Source: Nitrospinota bacterium (GTDB taxonomy: Bacteria > Nitrospinota > Nitrospinia > Nitrospinales > VA-1). From it: DNA of 43,704 nt. Of the stretch, positions 33,046 to 40,630 are shown one piece after another. The notes beneath the pieces are model-generated. The model was not told the origin of the DNA and did not search any database. It saw only the letters and a list, made by a program, of their open reading frames with translations. Every line of letters begins with the position of its first letter. Within the stretch, counting starts at the first letter, position 1. The stretch covers positions 1 through 43,704 of the forward strand of contig JACNKA010000083.1 in NCBI GenBank assembly GCA_014382285.1. The letters run 5' to 3'. The position numbers were made by a program, and so were the translations under genes.

Positions 33046-34785
33046 ATGGGATCACTGGCAAGCCAGACTAAAGGCGTACTGATAGCAGGGTTGATTTTGG
33101 CTGTCGTGAGCTGGGGCATTGTTCGGGACCGGGCTCAGAAAGTCTGGTTCGATGAGTTGGAACAGGAGGTTCTGGAAGACACGCTTATTTTAACGGGTGA
33201 ACTCGAAGTGGTGAAAAGAGAGTTGGGGGGCATCGTTTCTCTTTATCAGTCTTCAGAGTTTGTGAGTCGGGAAGAATTTGGAGTTTATGTTCAGCCGCTT
33301 TTGGGAAACCATCCTTTCATCCAGGCGTTTGAGTGGGTTCCGCGTATTAGCCACTCTGAAAGGGAAGGGTTTGAGAGCATCACCCGTTCTATGGGCTATG
33401 CCGAGTTTCATGTTTTCACATCTTCTGGCCCTGCAGAGGCGCAGCAGGAATATTTCCCCGTGCATTATTCGGAACCACTTCCTGATAATGAAGGGACGCT
33501 GGGGTTTGACCTGTCTTCTGACCCACAATTGTTGAGCCTTGCTAATACTGCCAGGGATACGGGTAGGGCGGTTGCGGGCTCGCGGTTTGGAGTGGTCCCC
33601 AATGCTCGCTCGAAATCGGATCTCATTATTCTGGCTCCTCTCTATAACGACAGGGCGGAACGCACTGAAGAAAGACGGGAGCACTTAAAAGGTTTTGTGC
33701 TGGGGATATACCGGGTGCACGACATGATTGACCAAATGGTCAGTCCCTATATTCCCAAAGGGATGAACCTAACCGTTTATGAAGAAGGCGAATTGGTTGA
33801 GGAAAATCTGCTTTACGGTAAACCGTTAAAGAACCCGGCAATGAAGATCACCAACGTGGTCAATGTCTCCAATCGGCGATGGTTTCTGGTTTGGCAGGCT
33901 ACCGATGAGTTTCGCGGTGGGGCGCAAACATTGAACGCATTCTGGGTGGGGGTAGCTATTTTTTCGGCAGCCCTGTTCCTTTCTATTATCATTGAGATAA
34001 TGGCATCGCGGACACGTGTTGTGGAGAATGAGGTTCGGGTTCGTACAGAAGAACTAACCCTGGCGAACCAGAAACTTGTTGAGTTGAATGATTTGAAAAA
34101 TAAATTTTTGGGAATCGCATCGCACGATCTCAGGAATCCTCTTGCTTCCATCCGCGGGTACTCCAAGTTTCTTTTGGATAAGGGAACGCAAGTCAAGGAA
34201 GATACCCGACAGGAGTTTTTAACAACCATTAAAAATGTTAGTGGAAATATGCTGGAGTTGATCAGCAATCTGCTGGACATCTCGGTGATTGAAAGCGGCC
34301 AGCTGAAACTGAACCCCGCACTGTCATCCATGAAAAAACTCGTTGAAGAAAAAATCCATCTACAGCAGATATTAGCCGACAAAAAACATATTACACTCCA
34401 TGCAGATATGGAGAGTGTTCCTGAATTTTATTTTGATTCAAACCGAATGGGGCAGGTGGTGGATAATCTTCTCAGTAACGCGGTCAAGTACTCGTCACCA
34501 GAAAAAGGGGTTTATGTCAAGCTGGTGTCTGATGACGAAACCATGACCTTAAGCGTTAAGGATGAAGGCCCGGGGATTTCTACTGATGAACAGGGACAGC
34601 TATTCCAGCACTTTCAAAAATTAAGTGCCCGGCCCACCGGAGGTGAAAGCAGTTCCGGGTTGGGGCTGGCCATTGCTCAGAGAATTGTTGAAGAACATCA
34701 GGGAAGTATCTGGGTCGATAGCCAGTTTGGTCAAGGGGCCACGTTTTACTTCAGCCTGCCTATGGAAAATCCTCACCAAAAATAA
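33046..34785 (+). CDS. CHASE-domain sensor histidine kinase
   Basis: The 579-residue membrane kinase has TM1 (about 13-28) and a periplasmic CHASE domain (about 75-215) that should sense a small ligand. TM2 lies at about 304-325, followed by a coiled coil, HisKA with SHDLRNPLASIRGY (phospho-His near 360) and HATPase with an N-box NLLSNAVKY near 475. The G1 motif DEGPGIS and G2 SSGLGLAIAQ are intact. The ligand is unknown; CHASE proteins sense cytokinin-like compounds or other organic molecules. The divergent NtrC-type regulator is the probable partner. Confidence 0.9.
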   Translation: MGSLASQTKGVLIAGLILAVVSWGIVRDRAQKVWFDELEQEVLEDTLILTGELEVVKRELGGIVSLYQSSEFVSREEFGVYVQPLLGNHPFIQAFEWVPRISHSEREGFESITRSMGYAEFHVFTSSGPAEAQQEYFPVHYSEPLPDNEGTLGFDLSSDPQLLSLANTARDTGRAVAGSRFGVVPNARSKSDLIILAPLYNDRAERTEERREHLKGFVLGIYRVHDMIDQMVSPYIPKGMNLTVYEEGELVEENLLYGKPLKNPAMKITNVVNVSNRRWFLVWQATDEFRGGAQTLNAFWVGVAIFSAALFLSIIIEIMASRTRVVENEVRVRTEELTLANQKLVELNDLKNKFLGIASHDLRNPLASIRGYSKFLLDKGTQVKEDTRQEFLTTIKNVSGNMLELISNLLDISVIESGQLKLNPALSSMKKLVEEKIHLQQILADKKHITLHADMESVPEFYFDSNRMGQVVDNLLSNAVKYSSPEKGVYVKLVSDDETMTLSVKDEGPGISTDEQGQLFQHFQKLSARPTGGESSSGLGLAIAQRIVEEHQGSIWVDSQFGQGATFYFSLPMENPHQK

Positions 34786-35375: not shown

Positions 35376-36365
35376 TCAGCGGGCAACCTTCCAAACTGAA
35401 TCCACAAAATATTTTTTTGAGTCGAACAAATGCTCGACGATTTCAAATCCGTTTTCAAGGGCCAGGGTTTCCATTTCTTCAAGCGTGTATTTGAAGGATT
35501 GCTCAGTCTGCATTGCTTCCCAGGCTCTGAAATGAAAGTCCTTGTTTAAAGCCTTGATGTGTACGGCCTGATTCTGTGTGCTGTAAAGATAACTTTCCAC
35601 GGCGCGGGTATTGGGGTTGTAGTGGCCCTGCTGCACAAAGTTTTCTTTATTAAAGTTTGCGCCGAGTTCCTGATTGATGCGGTCCAACAGGTGCAGGTTG
35701 AATTTTTCAAAAAGCCCATTATTGTAGGCAGAATAAAGCAGTTTCGGATTTTTCATGAGATCAAATCCGGTCAGTAAATAATCTTCTGGTCCCAGCGACT
35801 CTTTCAAATTTTTAAGAAAAGACCGGGCTGTATCTGAATCCATATTGTTCAGGGTGACTCCCAGAAAGAGGACGAGATTTTGTTTTGAGTCATTCCGGGT
35901 AATAGTTTTTAATCCCTCAAAATAGTCTCCGGTTAGACCCGTCACCTTCAGGGGCGTACTCGTATGACTGTTTTCTAACGACCGAACCAGATTTGTAATC
36001 GCTCCGTTGGAAATATCAATGGGGAAGTAGTGGAAATTTAATTTCTTATCCAGAAAGTGCTCAATGAGAATTTTGGTCTTGCAACCATCACCTGCGCCCA
36101 ACTCGATAAGGTTAAATGTGTTGCCGGTAATGAGTCTGGAAATGTCATTTTTATGATTGTGAATGATTTCAAACTCACATGCGGCGGGAAGGTATTCTGC
36201 TAGTTCCGTTATTTTTTTGAAGAGTTCACTTCCAGCGTTATCAAAAATCAGCCATGATGGCAAACGCTTGTTTTGAAGGGAAAGGCCCTCGTTGACTGTG
36301 CTGGCAAACTGTCCTTCAGGAGAAAATGCCTCCGGCCCAGATTTTAGTATTTTTGTTTCAAACAA
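35376..36365 (-). CDS. EgtD-like SAM-dependent amino acid N-methyltransferase
   Basis: I choose a TTG start at 36365, with AAAGGAG ending 8 bases before it. This gives 329 residues, close to EgtD (about 321); the ATG at 36494 would add 43 residues without a family match. EgtD-type motifs are present: FDNAGSELF, ELGAGDGCKT (SAM glycine loop), YFPIDISNG, LVLFLGVTLNN, LLYSAYNN and QTEQSFKY with the substrate-binding Glu and Ser. The usual LPEYYPTR reads LAEYLPAACE, so the substrate may not be histidine. No EgtB is nearby. It is divergent from a haem-oxygenase-like diiron protein and may act with it. Confidence 0.78.
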   Translation of the reverse strand: MFETKILKSGPEAFSPEGQFASTVNEGLSLQNKRLPSWLIFDNAGSELFKKITELAEYLPAACEFEIIHNHKNDISRLITGNTFNLIELGAGDGCKTKILIEHFLDKKLNFHYFPIDISNGAITNLVRSLENSHTSTPLKVTGLTGDYFEGLKTITRNDSKQNLVLFLGVTLNNMDSDTARSFLKNLKESLGPEDYLLTGFDLMKNPKLLYSAYNNGLFEKFNLHLLDRINQELGANFNKENFVQQGHYNPNTRAVESYLYSTQNQAVHIKALNKDFHFRAWEAMQTEQSFKYTLEEMETLALENGFEIVEHLFDSKKYFVDSVWKVAR

Positions 36366-36570
36366 GAGTATGGCTCCTTTCGCTGCGCGGTGAATTTGAC
36401 CTTGTTGGTTGTGTTTGTTATAGTACCTAGCATAATTCCTTTTTACATCACTATTTATTGTCTTTGACAATTGCTGCGGGACGTAGCTTTCCACAGTGGG
36501 GATGTTTGTCGGGTTCTAACTTTTCGCAAAATTAACGAACCCTAATTCTAATTTTATACTCCTAAAAACT

Positions 36571-37632
36571 ATGAATTTTAATTCGCAAACGGACTCAACA
36601 GCCCTTGATTTTGCATATCAGGAATTGGAGGAAGAGTTTTTAGAACTATTGGGGTTAGATAATCTGGATCGAGTTATTTCTAAACATCCTGAGAGGGCTG
36701 AAAATTTCAAATCGGAACTTAAAGTATCTTTGTCTGCTGCTTTTAGAAATGAAACTGGGTGCCCTCAGGCGCACCTGTTTTTGCAAAGAATTCTTTATCG
36801 TATAAACCGTTTAAAGCTGTTTTGGTATGACGGGTTGGAGAATTATGTCAATGAGGATTCTGCTTTTCTGTTTTCCTTGCGTTTGGAAATTGAAGATGCA
36901 TGGCAGGATTGGGAGGAGAGCAATACCGTTCGTCGGAGTTCCGGCACCCTGAGTGCTGTTCTGCGTGATCGTGTGCAAGAGGACTTGCAACCGGAACCAT
37001 CTCCTGATGGATTGTTCATTCGCAATGAAATTTCAAAATCCGGGTACCAGTGTTTGCTTGCTATCACTTCTCTGGATGGTCTGGTGGAAGCCAGCCAGCT
37101 TTCTCGTATGCTGGGGGGTGTAGGAAACGAGGTGCAGATGATGCTGACCAGAATTTTATGGGAAGAGTATGGCAGTGGAAAATTTTCCCGAAAGCATTCC
37201 ACTCATTTTGCAACCATGTTGGAAGAATGTGATATGGACTCCAGGCCGGAAACTTATTTCGATCTTGTGCCGTGGGAAGTTCTGGCAAACATCAACCATA
37301 ACTTTTATCTTTCAGAGCGTAAGAAAAACTTTTTGCGCTATATCGGCGGATTGTTGTATACGGAGGTTTCTGTTCCCGCCGCGTTTGAGAATATTAAAAT
37401 GGCTGGGGAACGCCTGAAGATGGGTGATAAGGGCGTCAGCTATTGGGATCTTCACATTCGGGAAGATATTCGCCATGGGCAATGGATGCTGGATGATGTG
37501 ACCCTTCCCCTGATTGAAAAATATCCTGAACAGGGCTGGGATATGGTCAAGGGATATGACCAGCAAAAATTTATCAGCTTTCGTTCTACTGCCGCCATCG
37601 TTGAGACGATTCGTCGGTTTGAATTTTTCTAA
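36571..37632 (+). CDS. Haem-oxygenase-like diiron (HDO) family protein
   Basis: The 353-residue protein has an N-terminal helical domain of about 165 residues that I do not recognise. The C-terminal domain belongs to the iron-containing redox enzyme family, related to UndA and CADD. The metal-ligand set is recognisable as Glu199 with His209 (WEEYGSGKFSRKHSTHF), Glu265 (LLYTEVSVP), and His295, Asp299 and His302 (HxxxDxxH). Such enzymes oxidise fatty acids, amino acids or pterin-type substrates using O2. It has no signal peptide. The divergent neighbour is an EgtD-like methyltransferase; a joint small-molecule pathway is inference. Confidence 0.82.
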   Translation: MNFNSQTDSTALDFAYQELEEEFLELLGLDNLDRVISKHPERAENFKSELKVSLSAAFRNETGCPQAHLFLQRILYRINRLKLFWYDGLENYVNEDSAFLFSLRLEIEDAWQDWEESNTVRRSSGTLSAVLRDRVQEDLQPEPSPDGLFIRNEISKSGYQCLLAITSLDGLVEASQLSRMLGGVGNEVQMMLTRILWEEYGSGKFSRKHSTHFATMLEECDMDSRPETYFDLVPWEVLANINHNFYLSERKKNFLRYIGGLLYTEVSVPAAFENIKMAGERLKMGDKGVSYWDLHIREDIRHGQWMLDDVTLPLIEKYPEQGWDMVKGYDQQKFISFRSTAAIVETIRRFEFF

Positions 37633-37972: not shown

Positions 37973-39346
37973 TTAAATGAAATCTTTGCGTTTAAGCTCC
38001 AAGGCGTTGAGGCGATTGTATAGAGTTTGCCGAGAAAGGCCTAGATTGGTATAGGTTTTTTTTATGTCACCTCTGTTGCGAGTCAACTCCTGAGCAATGA
38101 GGCTTCTTTCTATTGCAGCTAACTGGTTATTCAATCCGGTTGGAGGATTCTTAAGTGTTTGCTGGATAGAAATCTGGATATCGTTACTCGCGCCTGAATC
38201 AGTTGTTTGGGGCAGGCCGAGGACAAACTTGTCGACTTCATTCTTTAGTTCGCGAATGTTCCCTTCCCAACGGCGGGTTTGTAGTTCCTGAATGTATTCC
38301 GCAGAGGGGACGGGTGGGGTTTTCTGATGATAACGTGAACAGGCGTCCGTAACCAGATGCTGAAACAACAAGGGAATATCTTCGGCCCTTTCGCGCAGGG
38401 GAGGCAGAACGATTTGTACTACATTGAGCCGGTAATACAGGTCCTCGCGGAATAGATTTTTCTCGCTAGCTAATTTTAAATCGGTTTTTGTCGCAGCAAT
38501 AATACGGATATCAAGGGGTATGGTTTCGTTGGACCCGACTCTTTCGACGACTTTTTCCTGAATCACGCGGAGAAGTTTCACTTGGAGGTGCAGAGGCATG
38601 CTTTCGATTTCATCGAGAAAGACCGTGCCTTTGTTGGCGTACTCAAACTTCCCGATTCTTTTTCGATCTGCTCCAGTGAAGGCCCCGGCTTCATGGCCGA
38701 ACAACTCGCTTTCGATGATATTTTCTGGCATGGCACCACAATTGATAGCGATGAAATTATGATTTCTTCTTTTACTACCTTGATGGATGTTTTGTGCAAC
38801 GAGGTCTTTTCCTGTTCCCGTTTCTCCAAGAATCAGGATGTCGGCATCGGCATCGGCAACATTGGCGATAACCTGACGAAGCCGTTCGATAGAAGGGGCT
38901 TTGCCGATAAGGGTATTTTGGGTTTCGCTTTGAAGGAGAATTTTGGACTGAAGCCTCCTCACTTCCATAACGAGGCGGCGTTTTTCCATAGCACGTTTTA
39001 CGGCATCTATAAATGCCTCTGTGGCAAAAGGTTTTTCCAGGAAGTCATACGCCCCGTTTTGAATAGCCTGGACAGCCATAGGAATGTTCCCCTGGCCTGT
39101 AATGAGAATGACCGGAATTTCCGGATCCACTTCCTTGACTTTTTCCATGAGGGTCAGACCGTTCATTTTAGGCATCATGACATCACTCACCAGTACGCCT
39201 GGCCAATCTTCTGAGATGAGCGCAAGAGCATCTTTTGCCGATTCAAAATCTTCCACCGCATAGTTTTTGTTTTGAAGTTCTCTTTTGAGGGATAGCCGAA
39301 CAACTTTTTCGTCATCCACTAAAAAAATTTTTTCTTCAGAAGTCAT
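37973..39346 (-). CDS. Sigma-54-dependent response regulator, DctD/NtrC type
   Basis: This 457-residue regulator has a receiver domain (5-120; VLVSDVMMPKMNGLTL with the phospho-Asp). The AAA+ domain has GETGTGKD, the sigma-54 contact ELFGHEAGAFTGA, Walker B FLDEIESM and an arginine-finger region FREDLYYRLN. A Fis-type C-terminal HTH reads IKKTYTNLGLSRQTLYNRLN. The DctD-like receiver wording (QAIQNGAYDFLEKPF) fits a C4-dicarboxylate-type regulator, but no transporter is near. It lies 42 bases after a REC-kinase hybrid on the same strand, clearly one operon. Confidence 0.92.
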   Translation of the reverse strand: MTSEEKIFLVDDEKVVRLSLKRELQNKNYAVEDFESAKDALALISEDWPGVLVSDVMMPKMNGLTLMEKVKEVDPEIPVILITGQGNIPMAVQAIQNGAYDFLEKPFATEAFIDAVKRAMEKRRLVMEVRRLQSKILLQSETQNTLIGKAPSIERLRQVIANVADADADILILGETGTGKDLVAQNIHQGSKRRNHNFIAINCGAMPENIIESELFGHEAGAFTGADRKRIGKFEYANKGTVFLDEIESMPLHLQVKLLRVIQEKVVERVGSNETIPLDIRIIAATKTDLKLASEKNLFREDLYYRLNVVQIVLPPLRERAEDIPLLFQHLVTDACSRYHQKTPPVPSAEYIQELQTRRWEGNIRELKNEVDKFVLGLPQTTDSGASNDIQISIQQTLKNPPTGLNNQLAAIERSLIAQELTRNRGDIKKTYTNLGLSRQTLYNRLNALELKRKDFI

Positions 39347-39388: not shown

Positions 39389-40630
39389 TCAAGTTGGATC
39401 TTGCCCATTTTCTTTGAAAGGCAGGGTGATTGTGAATTTGGATCCTTTTCCCTTGTTGCTGCTTACGTTTATATCCCCTCCATGCCTTTTAATGATTCCA
39501 TAACTGACCGATAGGCCCAGACCGGTGCCTTTAACTTCGCCCTTGGTTGTGAAGAAGGGGTCAAAAATTTTTTCCATGTATTCCTGTTGTATTCCTTGCC
39601 CGGTATCTTCAATTTCCACTTCAACGGCGGAGTCCAAGTTCCTGGTGCGGATGGTGAGTGCTCCCCCTCTTGGGCATGCTTCATTGGCGTTCTGCAAGAG
39701 GTTTAAGATAACCTGTTTGATCTGGTCTTCCACCACGCTCACATCGGGTAAACAATTCGAATATTCCTTTATCACCTGTATGTTTTCTTTGTTGAACTCG
39801 TTTTTCTTGAGCATGAGCATGTCATCAATGGCGTGATGAAGGTTCAAGGGGTGACGGGTGCCTGATGAGGGACGATAAAAATCCTTAAGTTGTAGAGCCA
39901 GGTTCATGACGCGATTGCTTTCGTTAATGGAAAGCTCAACCAGTTCTGCCAGAGAGTCTTCAAGGTGAGTTCCCCGCTGAACCTGCTCCAGGGTATTACG
40001 AATTCCCATAAGCGGATTGTTGAACTCATGTGCGATGCTTGCGGCCAGTTGGCCCAGGGCCGAAAGTTTTTCGGCGTGTAAAAGTTGTTGATTTACTTTT
40101 TGTAATTCTTCTTCCGAACGTTTTCGTTCTGCGATTTCTTTTTTAAGTTGTTGATTGGCTTGTCTTAAATCGATGGTTCTTTGATGAACCCTCTGCTCAA
40201 TAAAATCTTTTTGAGCTTCAAGACTTTTATTCAGCAAATGCACTTCAAGAATATTTCGAATTCTGCAAAGCACTTCCGACAGATCAAGAGGTTTGGATAG
40301 AAAATCCCGCGCACCGACTTGCAGGGCCTTTAGACGGATGGCGGGGTCAGATTCTGCGGTCAATACCAGAATGGGCGCATAAGACTCTCCTTCGATATGC
40401 TTGATTTGCTCAATCACCTCAAAACCATCAAAGTGCGGCATTCTCAAATCGAGTAGAACAATATCCGGCCGCAATTCCTGATATAAAAAGGCGACTTCTC
40501 TGGGGTCCGTTGTGCTGGTGACCGAGGTGTATTTGGCCTGTTTTAACGCCGTCTCCAGAACCATGATATTTGAGCTTTCGTCATCCACTATCAGGATCTT
40601 GGCTTTTAAAATATCACTTTTATCTAGCAT
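39389..40630 (-). CDS. Cytoplasmic hybrid: receiver-histidine kinase
   Basis: This 413-residue protein has an N-terminal receiver domain (about 10-125; IVLLDLRMPHFDG with the phospho-Asp), then a long coiled coil (about 140-190). The DHp domain has SIAHEFNNPLMGIR (phospho-His near 201). The HATPase has N-box NLLQNANEA, DTGQGI and KGTGLGLSVS. It lacks membrane segments, so it probably receives phosphate from another kinase or senses an internal signal. The sigma-54 regulator follows it in one operon. The receiver-first order is that of hybrids that couple upstream phosphotransfer to output. Confidence 0.88.
   Translation of the reverse strand: MLDKSDILKAKILIVDDESSNIMVLETALKQAKYTSVTSTTDPREVAFLYQELRPDIVLLDLRMPHFDGFEVIEQIKHIEGESYAPILVLTAESDPAIRLKALQVGARDFLSKPLDLSEVLCRIRNILEVHLLNKSLEAQKDFIEQRVHQRTIDLRQANQQLKKEIAERKRSEEELQKVNQQLLHAEKLSALGQLAASIAHEFNNPLMGIRNTLEQVQRGTHLEDSLAELVELSINESNRVMNLALQLKDFYRPSSGTRHPLNLHHAIDDMLMLKKNEFNKENIQVIKEYSNCLPDVSVVEDQIKQVILNLLQNANEACPRGGALTIRTRNLDSAVEVEIEDTGQGIQQEYMEKIFDPFFTTKGEVKGTGLGLSVSYGIIKRHGGDINVSSNKGKGSKFTITLPFKENGQDPT

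Follow-up and report, generated by a model that had tools for sequence, protein, structure and literature searches.

Gene content of the locus

The window, by which we mean the whole stretch of 43,704 nucleotides analysed here, is contig 186 of a Nitrospinota genome (assembly of 2.97 Mb in 197 contigs) whose named near relatives are Nitrospina sp. and Nitrospinaceae MAGs. It contains a divergent pair of genes, an EgtD-like methyltransferase and a haem-oxygenase-like diiron oxidase/oxygenase (HDO), both lying where the original prediction had placed them and both confirmed by matches to their Pfam families:

35376..36365, minus strand: EgtD-family (Methyltransf_33) SAM-dependent amino acid N-methyltransferase, 329 aa (PF10017, 283 bits, E 3.3e-84; start placed via relatives)
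36374..36380, minus strand: putative ribosome-binding site AAAGGAG of the methyltransferase (read directly)
36396..36424, plus strand: promoter-like element TTGACC-17-TATAGT, directed towards the HDO (intergenic alignment of 14 relatives)
36571..37632, plus strand: HDO, 353 aa (Haem_oxygenas_2, PF14518, 97 bits, E 1.3e-27, cut-off 28.9; SznF alignment)

Comparison with relatives places the start of the methyltransferase at TTG 36365, which is preceded by AAAGGAG in the window and occupies a position common to most relatives (the genus using TTG, several others ATG), so that the protein comprises 329 residues. The upstream GTG 36494 was considered as a start and rejected, as were the first 43 residues of the long open reading frame as coding sequence, because this stretch is interrupted by stop codons in relatives. 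The HDO starts at ATG 36571, which is kept in the genus, as is the core of the promoter-like element. The two genes are the only Methyltransf_33 and the only Haem_oxygenas_2 genes of the genome. The pair is flanked by genes for a CHASE-domain histidine kinase, an NtrC-type sigma-54 response regulator and a receiver-kinase hybrid (33046-34785, 37973-39346 and 39389-40630), and related kinase and regulator genes are found near the pair again in some relatives only.

The oxidase carries a seven-ligand diiron site

By alignment to SznF, the HDO has seven candidate metal ligands (three His and four carboxylates, 3H/4C), E173, E199, H209, E265, H295, D299 and H302, corresponding in order to E189, E215, H225, E281, H311, D315 and H318 of SznF. 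All seven are invariant across 30 distinct Nitrospinota loci (the alignment has 31 rows, with the window present twice) and 31 cyanobacterial loci. The last six are the positions at which alanine mutants of SznF lose activity (PMC11705231), and they are the six that the original prediction had listed; all of these are indeed present, but the site has a seventh member, Glu173, which had been missed. This residue lies on auxiliary helix 2 and is the equivalent of SznF E189, which, like RohS E93, is an auxiliary-helix ligand of Fe1 that is absent from AetD (PMC11611611); such an extra glutamate marks the minority 3H/4C type of HDO (PMC13108848).

A profile built from the Nitrospinota and cyanobacterial HDOs finds RohS (8e-18) and SznF (3e-16) at the top, followed by HrmI, all of which are N-oxygenases. 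The match between SznF and the window HDO is confined to the HDO core (E 8.5e-12), the 353-residue protein ends soon after this core, and a profile search of it gave no match to a cupin domain. An AlphaFold2 model of the HDO, built with four close homologues, had a pLDDT of 41. The number of ligands does not by itself fix the reaction, since six ligands are enough for HrmI to oxidise nitrogen, and only a very small number of HDOs have been characterised, with known reactions for about a dozen among more than 10,000 sequences (PMC13108848). Taken together, the ligand set and the nearest relatives of the protein nevertheless favour N-oxygenation, as far as this can be read from sequence.

The methyltransferase has an altered histidine pocket

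The nearest solved structure to the methyltransferase is mycobacterial EgtD (8.5e-35). Against the NCBIfam EgtD equivalog TIGR03438 the window enzyme scores 251.9 bits, under the curated cut-off of 290.9 bits. The Nitrospinota methyltransferases form one clade with an SH-aLRT support of 100 and a long stem. In EgtD, Tyr56, Tyr206 and Ser284 grip the carboxylate of the substrate, Asn166 holds the amine, and Thr213 places a water molecule on the imidazole (PMC8593015). We compared these positions between 30 Nitrospinota proteins and 42 other EgtDs, namely M. smegmatis EgtD, 11 plasmid proteins (nine encoded near egtB) and 30 cyanobacterial ones. The clamp around the amino acid backbone is conserved in the Nitrospinota proteins, with Asn166, Tyr206 and Ser284 found in 30 of 30 and Tyr56 in 29 of 30. 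The pocket for the histidine side chain (Thr213, Tyr39 and Glu282) is not, and only Glu282, the residue turned towards the imidazole in EgtD, is kept, being invariant in all 30. The position of Thr213 (Phe219 of the 329-residue protein, Phe262 of the long open reading frame) is Phe in every Nitrospinota protein, against Thr, or once Ser, in all 42 others; the position of Tyr39 is Phe in 27 of 30, against Tyr in the 42. The position of His239 is Gln in 30 of 30. The earlier claim of altered substrate-side residues stands for Thr213 and Tyr39. A change of Met252 to Ser seemed diagnostic against M. smegmatis EgtD and was dropped when it turned out to be present in EgtB-linked EgtDs.

The absence of an EgtB-type sulfoxide synthase, also part of the original prediction, holds throughout the phylum sample: none of 77 Nitrospinota genomes has an EgtB match over the cut-off, the window genome showing partial matches only. 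They fall in about 20 regions of that genome (G000; for example C174:2692-3150), each covering the C-terminal, FGE-type portion of the EgtB model but not its N-terminal portion; the genome's set of FGE-type proteins is unusually large. Histidine is unlikely as the substrate in view of the altered pocket, the single long-stem clade and the lack of EgtB in Nitrospinota, although the conserved Glu282 would still be in keeping with it. From sequence, the substrate is probably an amino acid other than histidine.

Linkage of the pair in Nitrospinota

Recurrence of the pair in other genomes, on which the original prediction depended, was found. Among the 77 Nitrospinota genomes, 34 hold both genes, eight the HDO only (one of them a fragment) and one the methyltransferase only, the last at a contig edge. 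The co-occurrence gives a Fisher value of 4e-13, which is uncorrected for shared ancestry and does not count independent events. Larger regions taken from 20 other genomes show the divergent arrangement in every case where the methyltransferase is present, with flanking genes that differ between genera.

The tested genomes with the HDO only have no other Methyltransf_33 gene, and none in the flanks of the HDO, and the seven ligands are complete in those of their HDOs included in the alignment. Since genome completeness varies, such absences are weak evidence in incomplete genomes; the eight genomes with an HDO and no methyltransferase mean that the pair need not form one pathway everywhere. 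In two Nitrospinota without Methyltransf_33, a formyltransferase-like gene (PF00551) lies directly downstream of the HDO (L076:9797-10576 and L077:10098-10913).

A different methyltransferase accompanies the oxidase in cyanobacteria

Among 387 sampled genomes, mostly outside Nitrospinota, there was one clear homologue of the HDO outside the phylum, with 51% identity. The order to which it belongs is cyanobacterial, as two genomes of that order share 97% and 89% DNA identity with the egtB-egtD region of Picosynechococcus. In this order the HDO is present in 84 of 293 genomes, at about 50% identity to the Nitrospinota protein. A second HDO paralogue, more distant at 38-41% identity to the window protein, is present in three cyanobacterial genomes (G430:C1:94164, G470:C1:3348759 and G487:C9:44798).

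None of the 31 cyanobacterial loci examined has a Methyltransf_33 gene as the neighbour of the HDO. Instead, 26 of them (including L111, L124 and L141) have an adjoining gene, convergent or in line, for an uncharacterised methyltransferase of about 240 residues with an NPPY motif, which bears a distant likeness to HemK/PrmC and is unrelated to the EgtD-like enzyme. Across the 293 genomes, 79 hold the HDO and the NPPY methyltransferase, five the HDO alone and one the methyltransferase alone (counts uncorrected for ancestry), and the two co-occur also when they are not adjacent, as in G402. At locus L139, what appears from sequence to be another class I methyltransferase lies downstream of the HDO, and a Methyltransf_25-type gene is found near the HDO in five cyanobacterial loci. 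The NPPY enzyme was also considered as a stand-in in those Nitrospinota that lack the EgtD-like gene; this fails, with no match in any of the 77 genomes. Searches of viral contigs gave no relative, and plasmids contained distant HDOs only, with no Methyltransf_33 gene in either of the two regions read.

A proposed pathway and its alternatives

On balance, and with a slight preference, we read the pair as a short pathway to an N-oxidised, N-methylated amino acid derivative, made by a methyltransferase and an N-oxygenase. The HDO would bind two irons in a seven-ligand site of the SznF/RohS type and, as its ligands suggest, act with O2 on a nitrogen of an amino acid or of a derived amine, hydroxylating it or taking its oxidation further. 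The EgtD-like enzyme would transfer methyl groups from SAM to an amino acid's alpha-amine, the amino acid probably not being histidine, as the intact carboxylate and amine clamp and the Phe in the imidazole pocket would suggest. By analogy with the substrates of SznF and HrmI, one could, with less assurance, guess at a dibasic amino acid (Lys, Orn, Arg or similar), whose side-chain nitrogen would be oxidised by the HDO and whose alpha nitrogen would be the site of action of the methyltransferase. In the pathway as a whole, the HDO step would be the constant core and the methyltransferase exchangeable, EgtD-like in Nitrospinota and of the NPPY type in cyanobacteria. Precedents for coupling a methyltransferase to an HDO exist in both orders, SznE acting before SznF, and FlcE/FlcD before FlcA; the existence of genomes with the HDO only favours an HDO that acts first, alone or on an unmethylated substrate.

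The original prediction placed methylation first and cleavage or oxidation by the oxidase second; neither this order nor cleavage by the oxidase is supported by our analysis. A methyltransferase that makes an amino acid betaine, which the HDO then cleaves or oxidises, would agree with the conserved divergent pair, with the absence of EgtB and with the order of SznE and SznF, and a betaine product is what one would infer from homology to EgtD. We nevertheless consider this route unlikely. The HDO is retained, with its seven ligands, in genomes without Methyltransf_33, it is accompanied by a different methyltransferase in cyanobacteria, and it shares its ligand set with the N-oxygenases SznF and RohS, not with an HDO of the kind that cleaves C-C bonds or catalyses a rearrangement. 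Since a trimethylated nitrogen cannot be N-hydroxylated, a betaine would also have to offer another nitrogen, or a carbon, as the target.

That the methyltransferase makes hercynine, for its own sake or for ergothioneine by a route other than EgtB (such as a rhodanese-type EanB), beside an HDO that is an unrelated neighbour, is quite unlikely in our estimation: membership of the EgtD family, the conserved Glu282 and the backbone clamp speak for it, but against it stand the Phe at position 213 in 30 of 30 proteins where 42 of 42 EgtDs have Thr or Ser, an adjacency to the HDO that outlasts the rearrangement of its surroundings, and a methyltransferase seen without the HDO just once, at the edge of a contig. 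An HDO with a protective or regulatory role, which the methyltransferases serve or merely adjoin, could be modelled on DtpC of Acinetobacter, an HDO-like protein that limits oxidative stress (PMC13232832), or on the self-sacrificing CADD. Retention of the HDO without a methyltransferase in some genomes would suit such a role, but the strict linkage to two unrelated methyltransferase families, the seven-ligand site and the fact that the nearest solved relatives are RohS and SznF, not CADD, make it improbable.

Relation to known systems and significance

Our literature search found no paper joining EgtD with 'heme oxygenase-like', nor Nitrospina with ergothioneine. The streptozotocin enzymes SznF/StzF and SznE/StzE resemble the pair in combining a seven-ligand HDO with a SAM-dependent N-methyltransferase acting on an amino acid; SznF, however, has a C-terminal cupin domain that the window HDO lacks, and SznE is described as a methyltransferase of the arginine guanidino group, whereas the window enzyme is of the EgtD-fold, alpha-amine type. 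RohS, from the azomycin pathway, is likewise a single HDO with the extra glutamate on the auxiliary helix and the best profile match among solved structures, but it acts on 2-aminoimidazole, and the window HDO has a conserved N-terminal region outside the RohS match, which begins at profile position 125. Fluopsin C biosynthesis (FlcE/FlcD and FlcA) shares the oxidation of an amino acid derivative by an HDO with a later SAM-dependent N-methylation; it differs in using two HDOs, of which FlcD lacks two of the usual ligands, together with lyases, no constant genes for which lie beside our pair. EgtD itself, the L-histidine N-alpha-methyltransferase, is of the same family as the window enzyme and both have the amino acid backbone clamp intact, the window enzyme being set apart by its score under the equivalog cut-off, the exchange of Thr213 for Phe, the lack of EgtB and its HDO partner.

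An uncharacterised HDO subfamily that is tied to methyltransferases in two phyla means that a substrate class can be guessed and tested, and as marine nitrite oxidisers and many cyanobacteria have the HDO, its product may be widespread in nature. We put forward tentatively, as a possibility falling somewhat short of an even chance, that a two-enzyme pathway present in about half of the sampled Nitrospinota and a quarter of the cyanobacterial order makes an undescribed N-oxygenated, N-methylated amino acid, with the HDO conserved and the methyltransferase family specific to each phylum, that of Nitrospinota being a repurposed ergothioneine-type enzyme. The conserved pairing in both phyla points to an undescribed small molecule, and in the EgtD-like partner one would have a clear example of an ergothioneine enzyme whose EgtB has been lost and whose substrate has changed.
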